DNA of 35,827 bases from an archaeon (GTDB lineage Archaea; B1Sed10-29; JAJSAI01), in contig JAJSAI010000026.1 of NCBI GenBank assembly GCA_024274695.1, forward strand, positions 1-35,827. The letters run 5' to 3'. The notes beneath the pieces are model-generated. The model was not told the origin of the DNA. It did no database searches and saw only the letters and a program-made list of their open reading frames with translations. The position numbers and the translations under genes were made by a program. Positions 6,925 through 23,996 of the stretch are shown one piece after another (within the stretch, counting starts at the first letter, position 1; each line of letters starts with the position of its first letter).

Positions 6925-7626
6925 ATGGATCCTGAGAAAATAAAAGAAAAGATCATGTCCGCCGCGCGCTTCTGGGAGGGCAAGAGCCTCCAGAGGGAAG
7001 TGTGGGACTGGATACTGTCCTTCGCGGCGGCCGCGATAGTATACTTTGTTATCCTGCCCTTCTTTCTCGGCACCAGCGCCCCTGCCGTCGTGGTGAGCAG
7101 CTGTTCAGAGAAGGGATACCTTAACATAGGAGACATAATAATCAACCAGGGCGTGAGCATAAACGACGTGAACGCGCCTGAGGTCATGATAAACTCGTTC
7201 TACGGAGTGACTCCTGTCTTCAAGGACGGGAGGGTTGTTGCGATAAACTTTTCAGGGACAGTGGTCTACCGAAACACCTCGTCAGACATTGTCACCTACC
7301 TCGCGGTCCCCTCAGGGGCTCAGATAATACACAGGGCTTTCGTGAAGGTGAACTACAGCGGGGAAACCCTCCTGATAACCCAAGGAGACGCTAACCCCTA
7401 CCCCGACCAAATGTGGGTAAAGGACGGTAGAGGAGGATGGTGCATTGACGATAATAATGGTCTGTGCATAAGTACCATGGTGACTCAGGACCGACTTCTC
7501 GGAAGAAAGATAGGTCCCCCCATACCCCTCGCGGGCCACGTTAAACTATTCTTCTGTGACATCATGCCGTTCTGCGACGGGCACGCCAACCTCGGCACGG
7601 GGTACAAGTACAAGCTCTGGTGCTAG
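6925..7626 (+). CDS. Signal peptidase I-like S26 protein, Cys-rich
   Basis: This 233-residue protein has one membrane helix (about 28-50) followed by an S26-type peptidase domain. The catalytic serine region reads SSCSEKGYLNIGDII. It aligns with the usual S-x-S-M-x-P...GD motif of archaeal and ER signal peptidases, so the nucleophile Ser appears kept while the usual Met is Glu and the usual Pro is Gly. IIHRAF supplies the catalytic His that replaces Lys in archaeal enzymes, and TQGDANPYPDQ matches the conserved TxGDN segment. The C-terminal third is unusually Cys-rich (at least five Cys, including FFCD, PFCDG and the final residue), which could form disulfides outside the cell. It may be a specialised rather than the main signal peptidase. 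It is the last gene of the csl4 operon. Confidence 0.75.
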   Translation: MDPEKIKEKIMSAARFWEGKSLQREVWDWILSFAAAAIVYFVILPFFLGTSAPAVVVSSCSEKGYLNIGDIIINQGVSINDVNAPEVMINSFYGVTPVFKDGRVVAINFSGTVVYRNTSSDIVTYLAVPSGAQIIHRAFVKVNYSGETLLITQGDANPYPDQMWVKDGRGGWCIDDNNGLCISTMVTQDRLLGRKIGPPIPLAGHVKLFFCDIMPFCDGHANLGTGYKYKLWC

Positions 7627-9835: not shown

Positions 9836-10252
9836 ATGAAGCTCTCGCGCCAGTCAGAACACCTGATAGTCTCCACACTCCTTGGGATACTTCTCTCTCT
9901 TTTATTCGGCCACAACCTGGCAGAAGACTTTCTGATTGTTGTAGCGTGCGTTTTCGGAGGCCTGTTCCCTGACTTTGACCAGAAGCTCGGGTTCGGGCAC
10001 AGGAATCCTATCTTTCATTCGTTCCTTATCCCTACAATAGTGGGGATTGCCCTCCCTAAGATCATCGTTGTTAGAGCTTTCACCCTCGGGTACGGGGCTC
10101 ACATGATCACGGACCTGGACAACCCTAAGCAGACCTGGAGGTACATAAAACAAACAACAGGAACCGCACTGCTCTGGGTTTCGATGATAATAGTGTTAAT
10201 GCTCTTCTTTGACATCTCCTTTTACGAGATCCTTAGGGTTTTAGGGGCATGA
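9836..10252 (+). CDS. DUF457/YdjM-like membrane protein (putative metal-dependent hydrolase)
   Basis: A 138-residue membrane protein with about four hydrophobic segments. The motifs GGLFPDFDQ and GHRNPIFHS, with a further His near the N-terminus and HMITDLDNPK later, fit the DUF457/YdjM group of membrane-bound proteins predicted to bind metal. Activity is not known. The ATG at 9836 is chosen because a TATA-like ACTTTTAAGG (about 9803-9812) lies about 28 bases upstream; the open frame further upstream runs into the opposite gene. Its 3' end overlaps the convergent radical SAM-GNAT gene by 31 bases. Confidence 0.75.
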   Translation: MKLSRQSEHLIVSTLLGILLSLLFGHNLAEDFLIVVACVFGGLFPDFDQKLGFGHRNPIFHSFLIPTIVGIALPKIIVVRAFTLGYGAHMITDLDNPKQTWRYIKQTTGTALLWVSMIIVLMLFFDISFYEILRVLGA

Positions 10253-11922
10253 GGTTTTTTGACTAAGTACATCCAAGACCAGCGCGCTTTGCCACTCGTT
10301 TTCTTCATATACTCCTCGAGACTGATTTCTTTTTTGGTCTCTGGGTCTGGAAAACCGAAGCGCTCGAACTCGAATCCCATGCGAGTAAAAAACTTGAGCG
10401 ATTCAGGGCTTAGCATCATCGCCTCTGCCCTGAGTCCCTTGAATCCTTTCGCCCTGGCAAGGTCAAACGAGTACTCCACAAGCCTTCTCCCGAATCCTTT
10501 TCCTTTCTCTGCAGAGAACAGCCATTCCATGGTGAGCGTCCCGTCCTCTTCCGGCACGAGGACGGCTCCCGCGACTGGTTCAGAATTCTTGAGCAGTACT
10601 AAATCAAACTCACTTTCTTCCTCATGGTCTAGGAAAACTTTTTCAGGATACTCTTCATAGGGGGTGTCCCTGATGGCTTTTTTCCATAAGCCTACTAGGC
10701 TTTTCCGGCCTCTGGCGGGTGAGATGTGCCATGACCGATGTTTATCTCTTCTTTCGCGTTCCAGCACCATCCTCTTTTTCAGGAACTCTTTAGGGCATTC
10801 TCCACCTGTTCCGAACACTCTCAGCGCTGGGCATACGTCACAAAACCCGATAAAGGCACAGTCCTTGCAAGAGCTTTTAGGCCCTGCCTCCATTATCCTC
10901 TTCTCAAGCTCAGGAGAGGGATTGTTCCCTATTAGATAGTCGCAGGTTGTCCTTTCAAACGGAGGATAGATAACCTTTTTCAGTCCCTCTGCCCCAGGGC
11001 ACTTGAGTATGCTAAAATCAACTAATTTTCCCGGGTCAAGTCCTCTTTCCATGATTTTTCTGACCAGTTCAGGATAAATGTCCCACCATTCGCCTTCAGG
11101 GATCACGCGGTCCTGCCCGTATCCTGGGACAGCATCCACTCTCTCAGGCCTTACTATCACTCTGTCAGAAAAGCCTTTGACCTCCTGTTCCAGCATGTCC
11201 AGCAATCCTGAGTACTCGTGCAAGTTATTCCTGTCAAGATTTGACCTGATGACAAGAAGGCCGCTGGAACTGTAAAGGTAGTGGAGCATATTGCTCCATA
11301 TTCTCCAGAAGGTCCCTTTACCGCCTTTCAAGAACCTTCTCTTGTCATGCACTTCAGGAGGCCCGTCCAAGGTTATTTGGACCTTCCGTAGCCAGGGGGC
11401 ACGGGCAACAAAATCTTTTGACAAAAGGTAGCCATTAGTCACGAGCGATCCTGTGAAGAACGTTCTTTTGTTCTCCTTGTTCAGGAGGCTCATGAACTTT
11501 AGGATGTTTTCCCTTTCGAGCAGGGGCTCTCCTCCAAAGAGGGACACGTGGAAAAATTTTTCGTTTCCTGCCGCGGTCAGCACATCATGCTTTAGTTTAC
11601 TCCAGTCTATGCTCAGGCGTCTTTTACATCGCTCAAAACAGTACGGGCACTCGAAATTGCAGTCAAGCGTGACCGCTACCTTTAAGCTGGCTGGTGCTGT
11701 CTTGCCCGGATTATGGGCTTTCCTTCCAAGAATGTTGACTGCCTTTTCAAGGTCCTTATCAGAAAAGCCTGTCTCTAGCTCTACCAGCGCACCGCTGTGA
11801 GACGATCCGAGGATAAACCCCCTGTCAGAAGGAAAGTAAAAGGAGAGGGGAATTGGTTTAACCGCTTTTTCAATCCTTTTCGCATCTGCTTCCGCACTCA
11901 GGTTTTCTGCATGCTGCTGCAT
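10222..11922 (-). CDS. Radical SAM/SPASM protein fused to a GNAT acetyltransferase
   Basis: The 566-residue protein joins two enzymes. Residues about 80-390 are a radical SAM domain with CNFECPYC (Cys about 88, 92 and 95), a FGGEP motif and a SPASM-like C-terminal Cys set (CKDC, CDVC and others). This architecture is common in enzymes that modify ribosomally made peptides. Residues about 400-560 form a GNAT N-acetyltransferase domain with the acetyl-CoA loop GKGFGRRL near 474-481 and a later FFTRMGFE. The first 75 residues (around SFYFPSDRGFILGS) have no domain I recognise; a recognition domain is possible. The ATG at 11922 follows a TTG at 11925; both lie inside the small ORF at 11870-11995, so translation may be coupled. 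The substrate is unknown. Confidence 0.8.
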   Translation of the reverse strand: MQQHAENLSAEADAKRIEKAVKPIPLSFYFPSDRGFILGSSHSGALVELETGFSDKDLEKAVNILGRKAHNPGKTAPASLKVAVTLDCNFECPYCFERCKRRLSIDWSKLKHDVLTAAGNEKFFHVSLFGGEPLLERENILKFMSLLNKENKRTFFTGSLVTNGYLLSKDFVARAPWLRKVQITLDGPPEVHDKRRFLKGGKGTFWRIWSNMLHYLYSSSGLLVIRSNLDRNNLHEYSGLLDMLEQEVKGFSDRVIVRPERVDAVPGYGQDRVIPEGEWWDIYPELVRKIMERGLDPGKLVDFSILKCPGAEGLKKVIYPPFERTTCDYLIGNNPSPELEKRIMEAGPKSSCKDCAFIGFCDVCPALRVFGTGGECPKEFLKKRMVLERERRDKHRSWHISPARGRKSLVGLWKKAIRDTPYEEYPEKVFLDHEEESEFDLVLLKNSEPVAGAVLVPEEDGTLTMEWLFSAEKGKGFGRRLVEYSFDLARAKGFKGLRAEAMMLSPESLKFFTRMGFEFERFGFPDPETKKEISLEEYMKKTSGKARWSWMYLVKKPHAPKTLRIS

Positions 11923-11995
11923 CAACGGTCATCCTCTTGGCTGAAGGTGGTATTATTACGACAAGCTTTTTCTCTGACGCGTGTTTCATTAACAT
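11870..11995 (-). CDS. Candidate small Cys-containing peptide upstream of the radical SAM-GNAT gene
   Basis: A 41-codon frame starts at ATG 11995, with a better-placed in-frame ATG at 11989. AAGGGGAG sits six bases before the second ATG, and a TATA-like TTTTTATAT (about 12026-12034) lies about 40 bases upstream, so the promoter fits this ORF better than the enzyme start. The peptide has a Lys-rich start, a hydrophobic KLVVIIPP segment (residues 10-17), and three Cys in its last 15 residues (CRKPECGSRC). The position directly before a radical SAM/SPASM enzyme is where a precursor peptide would be. Against it, the last 53 bases overlap the enzyme gene in another frame, which is unusual. It could be a leader ORF or chance. 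Confidence 0.35.
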   Translation of the reverse strand: MLMKHASEKKLVVIIPPSAKRMTVDAAACRKPECGSRCEKD

Positions 11996-16431: not shown

Positions 16432-17580
16432 TTAATTAACTTCCTCCTCTAAAAAAGTAGACACCTTAAATAATGCTTCATCTAGATCGTTCAGTTCTTG
16501 TTCCCCAATGTACATATTTAGCGGTAACAGGACAACTCTTTTATGAATTTCTTCTGCTTCAGGAAATCTTTTATTTTGCCATGAGGATGAAAAGAGAGGG
16601 TGTAAATGATAAGGGATGTACCAAGGTTGTATTGGGATTCCTTCCATATTTAGAGCCTTGATGATGAAGTTTTTTAAAGACGGTTTTACTTTTAGATAAA
16701 TAGGTAAAAGATGCACGGCAAAACGAGTACATTGTTTGGGCACTATAAATTGGTTTGAATATTTTTTAAAAATGTTTCTAATTTTTCTACCTGTATTCTT
16801 TCTGTATTTTATTATTTCTTCCATTCTTTCTAGGTGCAGGATGCCCAATAAGGCCTGAAATTCACTGATTCTGAAATTGTAACCTTTTATTACAGTATTT
16901 CCACGAACTTCTCCGTAGTTTGTTATAACCTCTATCTTTCTAGCGTACTCTGTATTATCTGTTATAATTGCTCCTCCTTCCCCAGTTGATAATATTTTGC
17001 CTTCATAAGTGCTAAAGCAAGAGATATCCCCAAAAGTCCCTACAAGTTTTCCATGTACTTTATTGCCAACAACCTGAGAGATGTCCTCTATTAATGGGAT
17101 TTCAAACTCTTCTTTAATTTTGGTGAACTCTACGATCCTTTCAGAGGGGTAGAATAAATGGACGGGTAGAATTGCTTTATTTTTGTTTTTCTTTGACAAT
17201 ATATTCCTAGTTTTTTTGGGATCGAGAAAGGGGTCTTCTAGACCTGAGACATCTGAAAATATTACTTTTTTGTTAACGTTAACAATCGCGTTTGGAGTAG
17301 AATGAGTTAACGGAGATGTTATGATCTCAGATGATTTTATAGATTCAAGCGCTACCATCAGGGCTGCTACTCCAGAGGAGGTTGCTTTAGCATACTTAAC
17401 ATCAAAGAATGAACGTAATAGTTCTTCATATTCTTTAGTTTTTTTACCGTGTTTAGAACTAAATCTTCTAGTTTTTAAGAGTTCAATGAACTTTTTTTCA
17501 TCTGTCTCTTGAAGATAAGTCATAAAAATTGGGAAGGCTTTCTTTCTAACAGGTTCTCCTCCGAAGATTGCCAATTTCAT
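16432..17580 (-). CDS. DegT/DnrJ/EryC1/StrS family aminotransferase
   Basis: A 382-residue PLP-dependent enzyme of the sugar aminotransferase family, which converts keto-sugars or keto-cyclitols to amino forms. The N-terminus (LAIFGGEPVRKK) is typical. The PLP lysine is Lys195 in EGKILSTGEGGA, and Asp166 in EDISQ is the residue that contacts the pyridine nitrogen. All key residues are present, so it is probably active. It overlaps the dehydrogenase gene by four bases and is the last gene of a minus-strand operon that begins with the radical SAM gene. The pairing with a Gfo/Idh oxidoreductase resembles known dehydrogenase-transaminase pairs that make amino sugars or aminocyclitols. The exact substrate is not readable. 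Confidence 0.9.
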   Translation of the reverse strand: MKLAIFGGEPVRKKAFPIFMTYLQETDEKKFIELLKTRRFSSKHGKKTKEYEELLRSFFDVKYAKATSSGVAALMVALESIKSSEIITSPLTHSTPNAIVNVNKKVIFSDVSGLEDPFLDPKKTRNILSKKNKNKAILPVHLFYPSERIVEFTKIKEEFEIPLIEDISQVVGNKVHGKLVGTFGDISCFSTYEGKILSTGEGGAIITDNTEYARKIEVITNYGEVRGNTVIKGYNFRISEFQALLGILHLERMEEIIKYRKNTGRKIRNIFKKYSNQFIVPKQCTRFAVHLLPIYLKVKPSLKNFIIKALNMEGIPIQPWYIPYHLHPLFSSSWQNKRFPEAEEIHKRVVLLPLNMYIGEQELNDLDEALFKVSTFLEEEVN

Positions 17581-18395
17581 AATATTTCCTCCATCGCCTC
17601 GTGAATAACTTGAAGTTCCTTATAGCTTGGTAAAACGGTTTGAGTCGTACTTTTTAAGAGGGAGCAGTGTGCTTGGGTTGTTAGATAAAACCATCTGTTA
17701 GTTTTGGAACCATTTATATTTAAGGAATCCAGTATCATTTCTTTTTTATTGCCTTTTTTAGATTTGTATTCAAATAAGATTTGATCGTTATCCTTGTGTT
17801 TTAAAACAATTTTAATATCTTTATTATCTTTAGTCGTAAAAGCATATTCTTTAATATATTTCTCTTCTTTTTTGTGATGGAATGTAACACCTTCCGGAAA
17901 AATATAACAGAGAACATCAACAGGATGACAGATGATATCCCTAATAGTTGTATCTTCATAAAACATTTTGGTAGTGAAGTATGTGATCCTAATTTTTTGT
18001 GGAATATTTTCTTTTATTTTTTGCACAATCGGAAGTAGTCTCCAATTATAGTTTCCATAAATTTTTTTGGCAATATCTTTTGAAATGTTTAGTAACTCAT
18101 GTCTATTCGAGCATACTGGTTTTTCGCATAAGATCACTTTTGCACTCCTTCCATAAGTTTCCAGAATTTTTTTGTGAGTTGAAGTAGGAGTTGCAATGAT
18201 AAGCAAGTCTGGTTTCTTTATGTGGTTGTTTAGGGGTTGCTTAAAATTTATTTTTTTAAACTCCTCCAACTTTTGCGTATCTATATCTGCAAGTTCTATC
18301 TCTTTAATTTCAGGGTTTAAAAGCGCTGCTAAAAAATGTATTTTTCCGATGTTTCCTATACCTATTATCTTTACGCTTGATTTCTTATCCAACAT
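17577..18395 (-). CDS. Gfo/Idh/MocA family NAD(P)-dependent oxidoreductase
   Basis: A 272-residue dehydrogenase, shorter than the usual 320-380 residues of the family. The Rossmann fold starts with GIGNIG (12-17), preceded by VKII, and the conserved EKP motif is at 91-93 in CEKPVCSN. The C-terminal substrate domain is reduced. Such enzymes oxidise a sugar or cyclitol hydroxyl, which would supply the keto group used by the neighbouring aminotransferase. Its start lies 25 bases inside the radical SAM gene and its stop overlaps the aminotransferase start, so all three are translated from one mRNA. Codon use is strongly A/T-ending. Confidence 0.85.
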   Translation of the reverse strand: MLDKKSSVKIIGIGNIGKIHFLAALLNPEIKEIELADIDTQKLEEFKKINFKQPLNNHIKKPDLLIIATPTSTHKKILETYGRSAKVILCEKPVCSNRHELLNISKDIAKKIYGNYNWRLLPIVQKIKENIPQKIRITYFTTKMFYEDTTIRDIICHPVDVLCYIFPEGVTFHHKKEEKYIKEYAFTTKDNKDIKIVLKHKDNDQILFEYKSKKGNKKEMILDSLNINGSKTNRWFYLTTQAHCSLLKSTTQTVLPSYKELQVIHEAMEEIL

Positions 18396-19372
18396 AATGG
18401 GTCCTTTCCGTCATCTTTAATCGCGGCTCTGCATCCTCCGTAACACATGTAAAAGTATGGGCACCCCTCGCATGTTTTAGGGTGTTGATTTCTCCATTGA
18501 ATGAAAATAGGGTGATTTTGGTAAATTTTTTCTACGATGTTATACTTGTCAAGCAAAAAGTTATCCTTGTCTTCAGAGTAGGGGGCAGTAGTGCATGGGA
18601 CCATATATCCGTTTACCGTAATACTGGCAGAAATGAACCCTGCGCCACATCCTAAGACGCAAGAAGATGATTCCCTTTTAGGAGGGGTTGTTAACAAAAA
18701 TTCAAAAGGACTTTTTAATATTTTTATATTTCTTGATTTTCTTTCTTTTATTAATTGAAATAATACTTTTTTGTATTCTTCTTTAGTGATTTGAAATTTT
18801 TTCTGAAATTTATTTTTAGGGATAAAACGCATTATTCTGAAAGAAGGAACCCCTCTTTCTTCTAGAAAATCTAGTAGTCTAAATACTTCTCCGTTTTGTA
18901 TAACTTTCTTTGTAAGGATAGTTCCAACTACAAATTTTTTATTTTTTTCAATTAGCTTTTCTATTCCTGAAAGTGTAAGATCAAAGCTTCCTTTTCCTCT
19001 AAAATATTCATGTGTTTCTTTTAATCCATCTAAACTTATTTGGATTCTATCAAAATGAAGTAAGGAATCTATCCTCGAATTATCAATGAGTGTTCCATTT
19101 GTAGTGATGCTTGCTATCCCCTTTAATTGATGTATCTTCTTGACAATTTTATCAAGATCGTGCCTTAGTAAAGGTTCGCCTCCAGATAAATGAACTAAAT
19201 TTCCTGGTTCAACAGTCTTTTCTAAAATTTTTATTATTTCAGCAGTTGAAAGTTCTTTATTGTTTTCTTTCTTTATTTCATGAAAGTAAAAATAGCAATG
19301 TTTACATTTTAAATTACATCTTGAAGTAATATCTATAAACCACATGACAGGTCTAGGCAAAATCAAATACAT
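18371..19372 (-). CDS. Radical SAM/SPASM peptide maturase (putative)
   Basis: A 333-residue enzyme of the PqqE/AlbA/SPASM architecture, which uses an iron-sulfur cluster and S-adenosylmethionine to form crosslinks in peptides. The radical SAM cysteines are C19, C23 and C26 (CNLKCKHC), with SGGEP at 63-67. The SPASM domain has eight cysteines, C238, C242, C260, C301, C304, C310, C314 and C327 (CEGCPYFYMCYGGC), enough for two auxiliary clusters. It starts 45 bases from the divergent small peptide gene, the best candidate substrate. It heads the operon with the dehydrogenase and aminotransferase. It lacks its own recognition domain, which the PqqD-like protein at 21666 could supply. A role in another SPASM reaction cannot be excluded. 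Confidence 0.88.
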   Translation of the reverse strand: MYLILPRPVMWFIDITSRCNLKCKHCYFYFHEIKKENNKELSTAEIIKILEKTVEPGNLVHLSGGEPLLRHDLDKIVKKIHQLKGIASITTNGTLIDNSRIDSLLHFDRIQISLDGLKETHEYFRGKGSFDLTLSGIEKLIEKNKKFVVGTILTKKVIQNGEVFRLLDFLEERGVPSFRIMRFIPKNKFQKKFQITKEEYKKVLFQLIKERKSRNIKILKSPFEFLLTTPPKRESSSCVLGCGAGFISASITVNGYMVPCTTAPYSEDKDNFLLDKYNIVEKIYQNHPIFIQWRNQHPKTCEGCPYFYMCYGGCRAAIKDDGKDPLCWIRNQA

Positions 19373-19417
19373 TAAGTTTAAATATTGGTTATTTCATCTA
19401 TTTAAATGGTGATTATT
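19373..19417. promoter_or_regulatory. Interleaved divergent promoters of the peptide and maturase genes
   Basis: Two TATA-like TTTAAA elements share this 45-base gap. TTTAAATA at 19377-19384 points to the peptide gene, placing RNA start near 19407, directly at its ribosome site GGTGA (19408-19412). The other, ATTTAAATAG on the minus strand (about 19398-19407), lies about 30 bases from the radical SAM ATG, giving a leaderless mRNA. Each promoter lies within the other's initial transcribed region, so polymerases would compete. Confidence 0.5.
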
Positions 19418-19507
19418 ATGAATAAAAAAAAGATTTGGGAAACACCTACAATAGAAGAAATAGATTTAACATTATATTGTTGTACCCCTACTGATGATGA
19501 AAAATGA
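19418..19507 (+). CDS. Putative RiPP precursor peptide (29 residues)
   Basis: The ATG has an ideal archaeal ribosome site (GGTGA, five bases upstream) and a TATA element about 37 bases upstream. The leader-like half begins with a Lys run (residues 3-5) and WETP at 7-10, then IEEIDL at 12-17. Such K-x-x-W/Y-x-x-P leaders followed by acidic and hydrophobic residues are typical of peptides bound by PqqD-like recognition domains. The tail holds Tyr20, Cys21 and Cys22, then TPTDDEK. The adjacent cysteines could be targets for radical SAM crosslinking, and Thr18, Thr23 and Thr25 for O-glycosylation. No Ser or Gly is present. The divergent maturase neighbour and the PqqD-peptidase pair in the same island support this call. 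The cut site is unknown. Confidence 0.75.
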   Translation: MNKKKIWETPTIEEIDLTLYCCTPTDDEK

Positions 19508-19540
19508 ATACTTTTAATAACTTTTAAATCATTTTTGTTT

Positions 19541-20641
19541 TTAAAGAGAATATATTTTTTGATACTCTTTTACTGTCCTTTGAATATCAAATTGAGAGAG
19601 TACCCTTTTTCGTGCACCTTTTTCTATTTTTTGTTTAATTTTTATATTTTTTTCTAAAAAAAGAATATTTTTAATTATCTCTTTGGGTTTCCCAGGATGG
19701 ACTAGAACCCCAGACTTGAAATGAGTGATAATCTCTGGAATTCCACCAACTTTTGATGCAATTACTGCTTTTTCTGATGCCATGCCTTCTATTACTGAAA
19801 TGCCAAAAGGTTCTTCCCAAAGTGAAGGGACTAAAGCATAGTCTGAGATATTATAAAAATAAGGGATGTACTTGTAATCAAAGGGTCCGAAAATTATTCG
19901 GTCTAATAATGGATCATTAGCCCATTTTATAGATGAGAGAACTTTTTGTGTTTTATGAGCACTCTCGTTTCCGGTCAAAATAAGCACGAACTCTTGTGGG
20001 AGTTGTTTTAATGTTTTGATTAGAATGTCTACTCCCTTTTCTGGAGAAATTCTAGATGTACAGAGGAGAATTCTTTTTTCCAAGAAATCACTATTTAACA
20101 TTTTTGAAATTTTTTCAAAACATTCAAATTTATCTCGCTTTTTGAAAAGAGAAGTATCTATTCCATTATAGATTACTATAATTTTTTCAGAAGGGATAAT
20201 CTTTTTTAATTCAATTTTTATATACTCGCTTGGAACGACTATCTTTTTTAAGCATTGAGATTCATTTAATAATTTGAATACTGGTTTTAATTCAAGGTAG
20301 ACGGGAGTGTGATGGGAATAAATAATCTCATAGTTTTTGCTCCCAAATGTAGTGATTATAAAAAACGCAAAATCAATGGTGTGTATTTGAATTATATCCG
20401 GTGATATCTCATTGATAATTTCGCTAATAATTTTTTTCGTTTTCTGATAATCTAATGGTCCCCTTGATGGGAGGGGCAAATGATAACACTTCCCGGTTTT
20501 TTGAATGGTTGAAACGTTATCATCACAGAAGGCGATAAAATGCTTGTTTTTTTTGTCAGAGTTTGTAAGATTGTAAAGAAGAGTTTCGACGCCACCTATC
20601 GTGTTTGCATAGTCTCTAGTTAAATGTAAAACTTTTTTCAT
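19541..20641 (-). CDS. GT4-family glycosyltransferase
   Basis: A 366-residue GT-B fold glycosyltransferase. The N-terminus has VLHLTRDYANTIGGVE, the usual glycine-rich acceptor loop, and the nucleotide-sugar half has LLCTSRISPEKGVDIL and EEPFGISVIEGMA (the E-x7-E motif of retaining GT4 enzymes). It is cytoplasmic, with no membrane segment. It follows the other glycosyltransferase by one base, so both are in one operon on the minus strand. The small peptide gene lies just beyond its 3' end on the opposite strand. The donor and acceptor are unknown; attachment of sugar to the peptide or to a cell-surface glycan are both possible. Confidence 0.88.
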   Translation of the reverse strand: MKKVLHLTRDYANTIGGVETLLYNLTNSDKKNKHFIAFCDDNVSTIQKTGKCYHLPLPSRGPLDYQKTKKIISEIINEISPDIIQIHTIDFAFFIITTFGSKNYEIIYSHHTPVYLELKPVFKLLNESQCLKKIVVPSEYIKIELKKIIPSEKIIVIYNGIDTSLFKKRDKFECFEKISKMLNSDFLEKRILLCTSRISPEKGVDILIKTLKQLPQEFVLILTGNESAHKTQKVLSSIKWANDPLLDRIIFGPFDYKYIPYFYNISDYALVPSLWEEPFGISVIEGMASEKAVIASKVGGIPEIITHFKSGVLVHPGKPKEIIKNILFLEKNIKIKQKIEKGARKRVLSQFDIQRTVKEYQKIYSL

Positions 20642-20642
20642 A

Positions 20643-21590
20643 TTAAAAAAATTCTTTTATTTTTCTTTTAAATAATTTATATTCTTTATTTATTCTTTTG
20701 TAATATTTTATTTTTACTTTTTTTATTTTTTGTTTGTAAAATTGATAATTTTCTAAAGTATCTGTTATTTTTTCTTTCCAACAGCAAATATTATTTATTT
20801 TTTTTACTAATAATTCTTTTGGAACATAATCAGGAATTCCTCCTATATCACTTCCTAGAACTGGTATTTCATTTACAATTGATTCTATACATACACGAGG
20901 AGAAGGATCTTCCCATAATGATGGAACTAGAGTTATTTTGGTTTTTTCGTAAATGAATTTTATTTGATTGTATTGTACAGGTTCCAAAATTTTGACATTT
21001 TCAAAAGGGAATTTTGGAATATTTTGTGTGGTGCTTTTTTTTATTATTAAAAAATTTTTGTCTGGATTATTTTTTATCAGTTTATAGACGATTTCTGCGC
21101 CTTTTTTTAGGGAGGGGTTAATAAATGTTATCCATTTTTGCATGCTATCATCTTTTTTGTTATTAATTACCTCTTTTGAAATAATCATTGGTTCCAGGAG
21201 AATACTCTCTTTACTTATGTATGAATATTTGTTTTGTGTGTACTTTGAATTAAATACGATTACGTCTGCTGAGTTATTTATATCATTGACTCGGGTGAAG
21301 AAAAAAACAGGAATTTTTTGCATTTTTCCATATTCGATCGCATATTTTGCCCACGCTAGTTGAGTGAAAATGATACTAGGTTTTATTTTTTTTAACATTT
21401 TTTTGATATTACTTGGGTGAATTATTTCATAAATTTTGATATTATCAATTTTTTCAGGTCTTTTCGGATGAATAAATGTAAGTACAGAACAATCATATCC
21501 ATCTTTTTTTAACTTTCTTAGGAGAGTATGTGCACTTATTTCAGAACTTCCTATTCTTGGTAAGTATTGTTCAGAAATGAAAAGTATCAT
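20643..21590 (-). CDS. GT4-like glycosyltransferase, second copy
   Basis: A 315-residue glycosyltransferase with a GT-B fold. It starts ILFISEQYLPRIGSSE, has a SLKKGAEIVYKLI segment, and ends with LWEDPSPRVCIESI, which carries the E-x7-E motif. The open frame extends to 21701 and would overlap the divergent PqqD-like gene; the ATG at 21590 is where homologues begin and leaves room for promoters. It is distantly related to its operon neighbour. It has the most extreme A+T content in the island, with many Lys, Ile and Asn codons ending in A/T. The C-terminal residues are strongly basic. The substrate is not known. Confidence 0.82.
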   Translation of the reverse strand: MILFISEQYLPRIGSSEISAHTLLRKLKKDGYDCSVLTFIHPKRPEKIDNIKIYEIIHPSNIKKMLKKIKPSIIFTQLAWAKYAIEYGKMQKIPVFFFTRVNDINNSADVIVFNSKYTQNKYSYISKESILLEPMIISKEVINNKKDDSMQKWITFINPSLKKGAEIVYKLIKNNPDKNFLIIKKSTTQNIPKFPFENVKILEPVQYNQIKFIYEKTKITLVPSLWEDPSPRVCIESIVNEIPVLGSDIGGIPDYVPKELLVKKINNICCWKEKITDTLENYQFYKQKIKKVKIKYYKRINKEYKLFKRKIKEFF

Positions 21591-21665
21591 CAATAATAAA
21601 AAGGAAAATAATACATAAATAAAAGTATATGTTTTTATAAAAATTTCAAAGGAGGTGCGAAGATA
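21591..21665. promoter_or_regulatory. Divergent promoter region of the glycosyltransferase and PqqD-like operons
   Basis: On the plus strand TTTTTATAAAAATT (about 21633-21646) and a strong ribosome site GGAGGTG (about 21651-21657) precede the PqqD-like gene. The stretch nearer 21591-21625 is nearly all A and T and contains candidate boxes for the minus-strand glycosyltransferases, but none stands out. Confidence 0.4.
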
Positions 21666-21917
21666 ATGCCTTGGAAACCAAAAGTAAACGAAAACATACA
21701 AATAAAAAAAACGGAAGAGGGTGATATTCTTATAGATATTCTTTCAGGTAAATTATTTAAATTAAATAATACAGGTTCAGATATTCTTCATTTATGTAAT
21801 GGAAAAAATGAAATAAATATGATTGTCTCTCAACTTCAGAAAAATTATGATAAAGTAAAAGAAGAAGAAGTAGTATCTTATCTAGAGAATCTAAAAAGGA
21901 TAGGGCTTGTAATATGA
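21666..21917 (+). CDS. PqqD-like RiPP recognition protein
   Basis: An 83-residue free-standing PqqD family protein. These small winged-helix proteins bind the leader of a precursor peptide and deliver it to a modifying enzyme. The fold is recognisable: three strands (around IQIKKTEEGDILIDIL), the typical GKLFKLNNTGSDILHLCNG segment at about 27-46, and C-terminal helices ending in YLENLKRIGLV. The conserved NxTG(S)xIL core is present. It overlaps the downstream peptidase gene by four bases (ATGA). The only likely partners in the window are the radical SAM enzyme and the WxxP peptide about 2.2 kb away in the same island. Confidence 0.88.
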   Translation: MPWKPKVNENIQIKKTEEGDILIDILSGKLFKLNNTGSDILHLCNGKNEINMIVSQLQKNYDKVKEEEVVSYLENLKRIGLVI

Positions 21918-22243
21918 GCTTTACTCAAGATGAAATGCGTTTGATTCGAAAAGCAATGGATCTATTTGAAGTGGTTTACTTTAAAGCGGTAGGTAACAGT
22001 ATGTTTCCTACTATCAAAGAAAATCAAATTGTAAAAGTAAAAAAAGTAGAATTAGATAAAATCAAAATTGGAGATATTTTAGTTTTTGAAGTTTTTGGAA
22101 GTATTATAGCACATAGGGTTGTACGTATAGAACATAAAAAATTCGGCCCTATTTTTATAACTAAAGAAGATAATTTTCAAAATTATCCATCTTCGAAATA
22201 TTTAATAGCAAAACCCGAAGATGTAATTGGGATAATATCTTAG
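21914..22243 (+). CDS. Soluble S24/S26-family peptidase
   Basis: A 109-residue signal-peptidase-like protein with no membrane segment. The catalytic Ser is Ser29 in GNSMFPT (S-M-x-P box), KIGDILVF (51-58) is the conserved GD strand, and AHRVVRIE holds the catalytic His67 that replaces Lys in archaeal and ER-type enzymes. KEDNFQ (84-89) aligns with the TxGDN box. Without a membrane anchor it is unlikely to be a general signal peptidase. S24/S26 peptidases paired with PqqD-like proteins are a known theme in bacterial peptide clusters, so leader removal from the 29-residue peptide is the natural inference. It is translationally coupled to the PqqD-like gene. Confidence 0.82.
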   Translation: MSFTQDEMRLIRKAMDLFEVVYFKAVGNSMFPTIKENQIVKVKKVELDKIKIGDILVFEVFGSIIAHRVVRIEHKKFGPIFITKEDNFQNYPSSKYLIAKPEDVIGIIS

Positions 22244-22253
22244 AATATTTAAA

Positions 22254-23996
22254 TCATTTTTTTTGAATTACATAATTGTTGATAATTAGATAATCCAATC
22301 CCATAGTATAAAAGTCTCTAATTGCATCTTTTAACGTTCTTACAATTGTTTTTCCCGCTATATTAAATGAAGTGTTCAATACAGCAGGAATTCCTGTTTC
22401 GTTTTCGAAGTTCTTTATTAATCTGTAGAACTTTTCATTATCTTTTGAATGTAAGATCTGTGGACGTGTTGTCTGATCTACATGCACAACCGCAGGGATT
22501 ATGTCGGGTGAGGATACAGACACAGTAAAGGTCATATATTTTAAAGCATGAAGTTTTTTGGCAGGGACTTCTAAGATTTTTAATGCTTTTTCTTCTAATA
22601 TTGTTGGGGCTAGTGGTCTCCACAATTCTCTTCCTTTTATTAGATTTACTCTTTTTTTGTTGCATGAAAGAGAAGGATTTGCTAAGATACTTCTGTTTCC
22701 CAAGGCTCGCGGTCCAACTTCCATTCTCCCTTGAAACCATCCTACTATTCTGTCTTGGCATAGGAGTTCTGCAGCATATCTTTCAGGATCTGGGACGTTC
22801 TCATAGGATATCCTTATTTTTTTGAGATAACTTTCGATTTTTTCATCGTGTTCTTCTTTTCCCAGGTAAGGAGTGAATGGATATGTATCTATCTCCTTTC
22901 CTGTTAACATTTCATATCCTATAATTGCAGAACCAAGAGCTGTACCATAATCTCCTGCAGTTGGAGGGGCGAAAAAGGCTATTTCGGGATACTTTCTCGT
23001 TAGGTAACCATTCAATCTGCAATTAAGAAAGAGGCCTCCTCCTAATGCAATATTTTCTATGTCCTCTTTTTCTTTTTTGAACTTTTGGATCAAGCTTTCT
23101 ATAATTCCTGAGATATATTCCTCAGTTATTTTTTGTACCGCCCAAGCTAGATTTTTTTGATGAACGGTAGGTTCGGCACAATTCTTAGAAATAGGTATTT
23201 TAGATGATAAAACAGCTAGAATTTGATTTGTTAAGTGATGTTTTGTAATTCTAGTAAAATCGAAAGTATCTTCTTTGGAGACGATCATTTCTTTGAATTT
23301 ATGGTAGATTTGAGACTCAGAGCCGTATGCAGAAAGACCCATCGTCTTTCCTTCGGATTTGAGCCATCCAAGACCAAGATATCCGGTAACATAGTGGTAT
23401 AGCATGGCAGGAGATTGCGGGTATTTTACGCTTAATATCTTTTCGAGGAATCCGTTTTCATATTTCCATGCTGTAAGTGACTCAAATTCTCCCCTCCAGT
23501 CTGAGATTATGACAAGTCCCTTTCTGAAGGGAGCAATCTTTGAGACTGCCGCAGCATGTGAGAGGTGATGGGGTACAGCTATAACCTGAGGTGGAGAGAA
23601 TGTATGGTTTTTGATCCACTCTTTCAGGGTCTTCAAACTGGAGACGTATCTTCTGTGTTCTTGTGAGAGGCGTCTAGTTAAAGTTATCAGTATCCTGTTT
23701 ATGTCTTTTGACCCTTCAATGAGGAATGGTTCCGCTTCTGAGACAACTCTCCGATTGAAAAGAGTTACATCCCAGGGTATAGTTATGGCTTCTACTTCAT
23801 CTAGGATAGTACCTGTTGTGGAGAGACAGAATGTTATGGACCCTGAGGGAAATGTTCTTTCGCTTCCTTTGATTCTTGTATGTCTCTCTTCTTCTTCCAT
23901 TGCTAATATTTTTCCGTTTTTTGATATGCAGGCTGAAGGATCATGGGTTCCCATGGACGGTAATGTTGGATTAATTCCTAATATCACTCCTTTCAT
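22254..23996 (-). CDS. NodU/TobZ-type O-carbamoyltransferase
   Basis: A 580-residue enzyme of the carbamoyltransferase family that moves a carbamoyl group from carbamoyl phosphate, via carbamoyl-AMP, to a hydroxyl, often on a sugar. The N-terminal Kae1-like domain has the metal-binding HHLSH at 143-147 and GGLFLNCRLN around 320. The C-terminal YrdC-like domain has GRMEVGPRALGNRSILANP, the best-known family signature, and DTT/FNI-type ends (LNTSFN). Length is normal. The start has GAGGAG eight bases upstream. It converges with the peptidase gene (10 bases between stops). Its composition is somewhat less A+T-rich than that of its neighbours. It likely carbamoylates a small molecule or sugar made in this island. 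Confidence 0.92.
   Translation of the reverse strand: MKGVILGINPTLPSMGTHDPSACISKNGKILAMEEEERHTRIKGSERTFPSGSITFCLSTTGTILDEVEAITIPWDVTLFNRRVVSEAEPFLIEGSKDINRILITLTRRLSQEHRRYVSSLKTLKEWIKNHTFSPPQVIAVPHHLSHAAAVSKIAPFRKGLVIISDWRGEFESLTAWKYENGFLEKILSVKYPQSPAMLYHYVTGYLGLGWLKSEGKTMGLSAYGSESQIYHKFKEMIVSKEDTFDFTRITKHHLTNQILAVLSSKIPISKNCAEPTVHQKNLAWAVQKITEEYISGIIESLIQKFKKEKEDIENIALGGGLFLNCRLNGYLTRKYPEIAFFAPPTAGDYGTALGSAIIGYEMLTGKEIDTYPFTPYLGKEEHDEKIESYLKKIRISYENVPDPERYAAELLCQDRIVGWFQGRMEVGPRALGNRSILANPSLSCNKKRVNLIKGRELWRPLAPTILEEKALKILEVPAKKLHALKYMTFTVSVSSPDIIPAVVHVDQTTRPQILHSKDNEKFYRLIKNFENETGIPAVLNTSFNIAGKTIVRTLKDAIRDFYTMGLDYLIINNYVIQKK

Follow-up and report, generated by a model that had tools for sequence, protein, structure and literature searches.

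A candidate archaeal RiPP locus with a WxxP leader peptide, a discrete recognition element, a soluble S26 peptidase and a divergent radical SAM/SPASM gene

The archaeal stretch of 35,827 nucleotides analysed here (contig JAJSAI010000026.1; below, "the window" is this whole stretch) contains an A+T-rich island in which a short open reading frame (ORF), a radical S-adenosylmethionine (SAM)/SPASM gene, a gene for a PqqD-like protein and a gene for a soluble S26 peptidase are found together. By analogy with related loci and with published biochemistry, it is well supported that the short peptide, the PqqD-like protein and the S26 peptidase would form a leader-recognition and leader-cleavage unit of a ribosomally synthesized and post-translationally modified peptide (RiPP). 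We lean, with slightly better than even confidence, towards a full RiPP pathway, in which a RiPP recognition element (RRE) and a peptidase of the signal peptidase I (SpI) type would form the leader system, and a swapped-in SPASM radical SAM enzyme would modify the peptide. The elements concerned are the following.

19418..19507, forward strand: candidate RiPP precursor of 29 residues, MNKKKIWETPTIEEIDLTLYCCTPTDDEK
19436..19468, forward strand: leader RRE-binding motif W7-E-T-P10-T-I12-E-E-I-D-L, which fits the published [Y/W]xxPx[L/V/I/F/A] (PMC13381572)
19478..19504, forward strand: proposed core C21-C22-T-P-T-D26-D27-E28-K29, with a putative boundary
19408..19413, forward strand: ribosome-binding site GGTGAT, four bases 5' of the precursor ATG
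19377..19384, forward strand: TATA-like box TTTAAATA, about 34 bases before the precursor ATG, a putative promoter element
18371..19372, reverse strand: radical SAM/SPASM enzyme of 333 residues (Pfam Radical_SAM, E 1e-25)
19400..19407, reverse strand: TATA-like box ATTTAAAT, putatively serving the divergent radical SAM operon
21666..21917, forward strand: discrete RRE (PqqD-like) of 83 residues (PF05402, E 6.6e-11)
21914..22243, forward strand: soluble S26 (SpI-like) putative leader peptidase of 109 residues, with Ser29, His67 and Asp86

The original prediction placed a 29-codon ORF, equipped with a ribosome site and a promoter, opposite a SPASM gene, and each of these elements was located as listed. 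The ORF and the radical SAM gene diverge from a common promoter region, with starts 45 bp apart, and the ORF lies 2.2 kb from the RRE gene. The start at 19418 is preferred over a longer ATG frame at 19406, because the latter precedes the ribosome site. The encoded peptide (WETPTIEEIDLTLYCC) carries the RRE motif with W, has no HQxIxFET motif and no Ser, and its proposed core contains one CX3D pair, C22...D26, within CCTPTDDE. In a Markov-simulated island, chance alone yields 0.86 short ATG ORFs with the published loose motif [YW]xxPx[LVIFA] per 7.6 kb and 0.04 per 420 bp. For the extended motif [YW]xxPx[LVI]xx[LVI][DNE] the corresponding figures are 0.01 and 0.001, which are optimistic, as this motif was picked after the peptide had been seen. 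Since the loose motif is common by chance, the weight rests on position and on the extended motif, not on WxxP alone. Independent support for the ORF comes from other loci, where similar peptides recur next to homologous genes for the RRE and the S26 peptidase; a homologue of the ORF itself was not found. The PqqA profile TIGR02107 matches residues 7–17 weakly, with 13.6 bits where its cut-off is 20.

The protein encoded at 21666–21917 has, according to its AlphaFold model (pLDDT 92.3), the winged helix-turn-helix fold that defines an RRE, and leader binding is predicted for it. The six best Protein Data Bank matches of this model are all lasso B1 RREs whose structures were solved together with leader peptides (TM about 0.8). 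Its residue N34 corresponds to N33 of LppB, which is essential for binding and fixes the leader proline (PMC13381572), and its Glu68 stands at the position of LppB Asp70 in an alignment read by eye. LppB is the discrete RRE of the linear polyphosphorylated peptide (LPP) system, lppAKBSDN (Popov et al. 2026; PMC13381572), in which it hands the YxxP leader to LppS, a homologue of archaeal-type signal peptidases that cuts the leader solely with LppB present and is inactivated by S29A, H68A and D93A. As had been predicted, the free-standing PqqD-like protein of the window is coupled to the S26 peptidase, about 2.2 kb from the ORF in the same island: the two genes overlap by 4 bases, with a ribosome site of their own.

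The S26 protein has the LppS-type layout. The catalytic Ser stands at position 29, where LppS and three S26 proteins from the survey described below (L134, L139 and L142) also have it; its N-terminal helix aligns without gaps with Mesobacillus proteins, and the folds matched by its AlphaFold model (pLDDT 91.5) are those of signal peptidases and LexA. The claim that it is free of membrane segments holds: its maximal mean hydropathy over 19 residues is 1.56, versus 2.05–3.24 in housekeeping archaeal signal peptidases, and it thus lacks the N-terminal membrane helix by which housekeeping archaeal signal peptidase I is recognized. A bacteria-only S26 profile aligns with it from its first residue and profile position 1 (70.4 bits), whereas housekeeping archaeal signal peptidases mostly enter this profile at position 17 or later, though some score similarly. 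A score gap between the window protein together with G078 and other archaeal S26 proteins, obtained with a pooled profile, was discarded: both proteins were in the training set, and the gap vanishes with the bacteria-only profile. The distinctions retained are alignment from residue 1, Ser29 and the absence of a membrane helix. A tblastn search of plasmids with the S26 protein gave no match. Elsewhere in the window, 6925–7626 (forward strand) encodes a probable housekeeping signal peptidase I (TIGR02228, 52.2 bits, barely above cut-off), with an unusual SSCSEKG where S-M-x-P is expected.

The recurrence of this unit was examined in 257 Gb of sequence, with an alignment of three S26 proteins, carrying no RRE information, as query. 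Fifteen loci were confirmed, 11 of which have an RRE at a distance of up to about 5 kb (L134–L137, L139–L144 and L146; L135 is weak, at 36 bits), while S26-like proteins without an RRE are found in L138, L145, L147 and L148. The RRE profile was partly built from the same loci, so these calls identify genes and do not amount to an independent test; that of L144 is confirmed by Pfam PF05402. The 11 loci span six phylum-level lineages: six are of Bacillaceae type, and Lachnospiraceae, a deltaproteobacterium, Patescibacteria, Chloroflexi (the weak case, 36 bits) and Diapherotrites contribute one each. Precursors of [YWF]xxP type or HQPIxFET type adjoin the RRE in six loci (L134, L137, L140, L142, L144 and L146), for example MQAKKNIQTNFYTAPKVLIHQPIRFETAQSWNPGKG... 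(L142), MIAEKVYQRPVVLSHQPIQFETRHCWNPG... (L146), MDKKREYERPEIITYTEEEITNIIGPAQTMTSG (L140) and MKKEFVEPEILFVELVPEEVLARGCWQCSANGAYNC (L144). The Bacillaceae loci are the LPP system. The unit occurs without any radical SAM gene in Bacillaceae and Patescibacteria, and in the Lachnospiraceae locus a radical SAM gene lies one gene from the peptide. That locus (L144:5792-14200), a bacterial mixed LPP/radical SAM type, encodes a precursor with the core RGCWQCSANGAYNC, the RRE, the radical SAM protein, an HprK-like kinase, the S26 peptidase, two ABC-transporter-like proteins and an NTP_transf_5 protein. Locus L141, counted among the six of Bacillaceae type, is labelled Chryseobacterium sp. ISL-80, and its S26 protein groups tightly with Mesobacillus; contamination or mislabelling is probable.

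Among archaea, three Diapherotrites loci (L056, L075 and L076) encode YxKPxI peptides (MKKKKYKKPSIKKLSIKAARGATGIATNV; MEYKKPLIRKINIKSVGASLNFTVTQSAGIVQT; MNYEKPKIKVLNIKIANAAASISTKIVASSSTST) with conserved leaders and variable cores, and a radical SAM gene is adjacent in each; L075 is the same locus as L137 of the S26 scan. All three have an RRE, disrupted in L076, and both L056 and L075 have an NTP_transf_5 protein and a soluble S26 peptidase. A P-loop HprK-like gene stands beside the RRE, its profile match being weak in L056 and absent in L075. The sole profile match of the radical SAM proteins is the YydG peptide epimerase, at 109–145 bits with a cut-off of 300. Taken together with the window, these loci indicate that in archaea the unit of RRE and S26 peptidase is accompanied by radical SAM enzymes of two kinds or more.

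Other archaeal loci show parts of this arrangement. L052 and L108 combine YxxP peptides with an RRE and a radical SAM gene and have no S26 gene. L052 (6703-7611), from a G+C-rich archaeon, contains several tandem short ORFs with YxPPxhL leaders, followed by a radical SAM gene and a discrete RRE, and is another archaeal RiPP candidate without S26. In L107 (6276-9807), also archaeal, an RRE is fused to a metallo-beta-lactamase-like domain near SPASM radical SAM, GNAT-like and amidohydrolase-like genes; all these domain names, save radical SAM and RRE, were assigned by eye. PqqD-family matches are frequent in one archaeal phylum (27 of 156 genomes; loci L051, L053, L054 and L106), and most of them lack a nearby S26 gene or recognizable leader peptide. 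Many archaeal PqqD loci, L051, L053 and L106 among them, have neither of the two. Scanning PqqD loci for a loose WxxP gave too much noise to be used alone.

The third component, the radical SAM protein, has the motif CX3CX2C at C19, C23 and C26. Eight further cysteines (238, 242, 260, 301, 304, 310, 314 and 327) bear out the predicted eight-Cys SPASM enzyme; seven of them fit the usual SPASM arrangement, and the Pfam SPASM match (E 0.004) falls under the curated cut-off. No ribosome site precedes its ATG, and its start is therefore likely leaderless. The top curated profiles are TIGR04133 (126.7 bits), ScmE (111.9) and PapB (NF047865; 111.7, cut-off 340), all far under cut-off, and the protein also scores far below the cut-offs of PqqE (85.7 bits, cut-off 381) and MftC. 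These sequence scores lean towards peptide maturases. The closest archaeal homologues (30–37% identity) are tetrapyrrole-type enzymes. A tetrapyrrole (AhbD/NirJ) identity was rejected, as the window protein reaches 99–106 bits (AhbD 99) versus 228–395 for those homologues. A plasmid homologue, H5 (112 bits), lies one gene from a PqqD chaperone gene; among the genomes scanned with the protein, no relative was confirmed. The evidence that the enzyme acts on the 29-residue peptide, namely the divergent and adjacent position of the genes and the lean of the profile scores, is circumstantial. PapB links Cys to Asp or Glu, with a preference for CX3D and acceptance of other spacings (PMC9413430). Because the core holds one CX3D, a Cys-Asp thioether peptide, suggested by analogy with this chemistry, is our first guess at the product, and no more.

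In the pathway that we favour, the 29-residue precursor would present its W-xx-P-x-I leader to the discrete RRE, which, judging from fold, motif and the conserved N34, would bind it in a cleft and hold the core out. The divergent SPASM enzyme would then modify the C-terminal core LYCCTPTDDEK, most plausibly by a C22-x3-D26 Cys-Asp thioether. The RRE-leader complex would next dock on the N-terminal helix of the S26 peptidase, as the LppS helix docks on the RRE-leader sheet in a published AlphaFold3 model (PMC13381572). The leader would be removed by means of Ser29, His67 and Asp86, a reaction biochemically shown for the Bacillota homologue LppS only. In LppA, the motif Tyr lies 16 residues before the cut (PMC13381572), which would put the cut near residue 22; the lasso spacing of 15 would put it near residue 21. 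Cleavage at about residues 20–22, estimated from spacing only, would leave a product of about 7–9 residues. Glycosyl-, amino-sugar and carbamoyl-transfer neighbours may decorate this product or may serve a surface polysaccharide locus, the usual home of such clusters. On a broader and more tentative view, to which we give a little less than an even chance, the leader module ([W/Y]xxP leader, discrete RRE and soluble SpI peptidase) has been widely transferred among six or more lineages of bacteria and archaea with differing modifying enzymes plugged in. In Bacillota this enzyme would be an HprK kinase, in Diapherotrites an epimerase of YydG-like type, and in the present island a SPASM enzyme making a very short Cys/Asp cross-linked archaeal peptide.

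The genomic setting bears on this proposal. The source genome is an 825-kb archaeal assembly, 91% complete, and the G+C content is mostly 27–39% across 17–24 kb, versus 48–57% in the flanks, which carry chromosomal genes. The PqqD-family match is the single one in the genome, and the other genomes of the phylum covered here (19 in total) have none; the island, with its sugar-type genes, radical SAM gene, short ORF, RRE gene and S26 gene, therefore looks like acquired DNA. Its remaining genes are:

16432..17580, reverse strand: DegT/DnrJ aminotransferase, overlapping the Gfo/Idh/MocA gene
17577..18395, reverse strand: Gfo/Idh/MocA-type oxidoreductase, overlapping the radical SAM gene in the same operon
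19541..20641, reverse strand: GT4 glycosyltransferase, convergent with the precursor ORF
20643..21593, reverse strand: second glycosyltransferase, probable ATG start at 21593
22254..23996, reverse strand: NodU-type carbamoyltransferase

Outside the island, a second radical SAM gene (10222-11925, reverse strand) is fused to a GNAT acetyltransferase domain. It matches profiles of RiPP maturases best (TIGR04463, 106 bits, cut-off 525; Clo7bot, CefB, geopeptide), and no short ORF of [WY]xxP type was seen adjoining it.

The original prediction, that these proteins together make and cut a modified peptide, stands for recognition and cleavage, given the RRE in 11 of 15 S26 loci (one weak), the frequent [YWF]xxP peptides, the LPP biochemistry (PMC13381572) and the Diapherotrites YxxP cases; its other half, modification by the SPASM enzyme, is circumstantial, as Gfo/Idh and DegT genes belong to the same operon as that gene. 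Several observations weigh against the full pathway. The operon of radical SAM, Gfo/Idh and DegT genes, whose reading frames overlap in series, is an arrangement typical of sugar pathways, and with scores far below all curated cut-offs the substrate class would not be fixed by sequence. No close homologue turned up for the radical SAM protein or for the island as a whole that could show whether the peptide is kept beside this enzyme. The RRE is just 10–29% identical to other RREs, the S26 tree, built to find a donor, lacked resolution, and the island contains no exporter. Moreover, Y, not W, marks LPP leaders, and WxxP marks those of paeninodin lasso peptides; a lasso RRE from outside Bacillota, however, bound W and Y leaders alike (PMC13381572), and a W leader is for this reason compatible with the RRE.

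The overlapping frames could mean that precursor, RRE and S26 peptidase form a RiPP unit while the radical SAM enzyme serves a sugar pathway, with the peptide modified by, for example, glycosyltransferases. The existence of the unit without radical SAM genes in Bacillaceae and Patescibacteria and the tetrapyrrole-type archaeal homologues also suit this alternative, which we nevertheless consider unlikely, given the common 45-bp promoter region of peptide and radical SAM gene, the radical SAM genes that adjoin the peptide in Diapherotrites and lie one gene off in Lachnospiraceae, and the lean of the profile scores to peptide maturases. It is more improbable still that the 29-codon ORF is not the substrate and that the RRE and S26 peptidase act on a precursor from another place in the genome or from its unassembled part. 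The chance frequency of the loose motif (0.86 per 7.6 kb), the 2.2 kb to the RRE and the failure to find an ORF homologue would allow this, but the extended leader motif, the ribosome site, the TATA-like box and the position beside the SPASM gene, the comparable peptides that six other loci have next to RRE and S26 genes, and the RRE being the only one in the genome speak for the ORF. A route like that of pyrroloquinoline quinone (PQQ) or mycofactocin, in which the peptide would be trimmed to a small redox cofactor, for instance through a carbon link of Asp/Glu to Tyr in D16xxxY20, and later glycosylated, seems to us very improbable. It would account for the weak PqqA match on the leader, the PqqD-like RRE, the SPASM enzyme and the nearby glycosyltransferases; the PqqA match, however, is below cut-off and covers the WxxP region only, PqqB and PqqC are absent from the island, the S26 protein is of LppS type, and the radical SAM protein falls far short of the PqqE and MftC cut-offs.

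The occurrence of one and the same unit of RRE and peptidase in two lineages of archaea and a number of bacterial phyla, with different modifying enzymes, would make leader recognition and removal a transferable module independent of the chemistry. SpI-type leader peptidases have been part of RiPP biology since 2026 only, from Bacillota, and no report of them in archaeal RiPPs was found in the open-access literature. A small soluble S26 gene beside an RRE would be a new genome-mining handle for RiPPs with precursors too short for annotation, and a route to little-known archaeal peptide products. Genome mining has already revealed RiPP clusters of archaea, among them predicted ranthipeptides and lasso peptides, across superphyla including DPANN (PMC12144867).

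Compared with known systems, the window shares with LPP a discrete RRE adjoining a soluble SpI/S26 peptidase, the triad Ser29/His67/Asp86 (S29/H68/D93 in LppS), a [Y/W]xxPx[hydrophobic] leader, glycosyltransferase neighbours and an RRE Asn at the leader-proline site; LPP clusters sit in capsular polysaccharide loci (PMC13381572). It differs in being archaeal, whereas LPP is described as restricted to Bacillota, in its W leader, in a precursor without the HQxIxFETxxS part of the LppA region YxxPxVLxHQxIxFETxxS, and in the SPASM radical SAM gene beside the precursor; radical SAM enzymes are unmentioned in the LPP study, which presents SpI leader peptidases as new to RiPPs (PMC13381572). The LPP enzymes LppK (HprK kinase), LppN (nucleoside triphosphate (NTP) transferase) and LppD (exporter) (PMC13381572) have no counterparts in the island: an HprK-like kinase was found neither there nor genome-wide with PF07475, a profile that misses divergent members, and no NTP transferase or MsbA-like exporter was found in the island, to which the search for these two was confined. 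The locus thus has the SpI peptidase and RRE of LPP and not, within the island, its HQxIxFET motif, kinase, NTP transferase and exporter, and it was not assigned to LPP.

With paeninodin-type lasso peptides the window shares a WxxP leader and a discrete B1-like RRE, the fold being closest to lasso B1; its RRE has Asn where that of paeninodin has Gly, and with neither a macrolactam cyclase nor a B2 cysteine peptidase among the island ORFs a lasso identity was rejected. Membership in PQQ synthesis was likewise set aside, in agreement with the original prediction that the locus is not simply a PQQ pathway: no PqqB- or PqqC-like gene was found in the island, the only part of the genome that was checked for them, and PqqE and PqqA scores are below cut-off. 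The SPASM radical SAM enzyme and a core with one CX3D pair recall the ranthipeptides (PapB/PapA), from which the window differs by its PapB score, its separate RRE and its [Y/W]xxP-type leader. The Diapherotrites clusters (L056, L075/L137 and L076) resemble it in being archaeal and in having a discrete RRE, a soluble S26 peptidase and a radical SAM gene adjoining the precursor, there of YxKPxI type, and differ from it in their YydG-like radical SAM enzyme and in their NTP_transf_5 and HprK-like genes.

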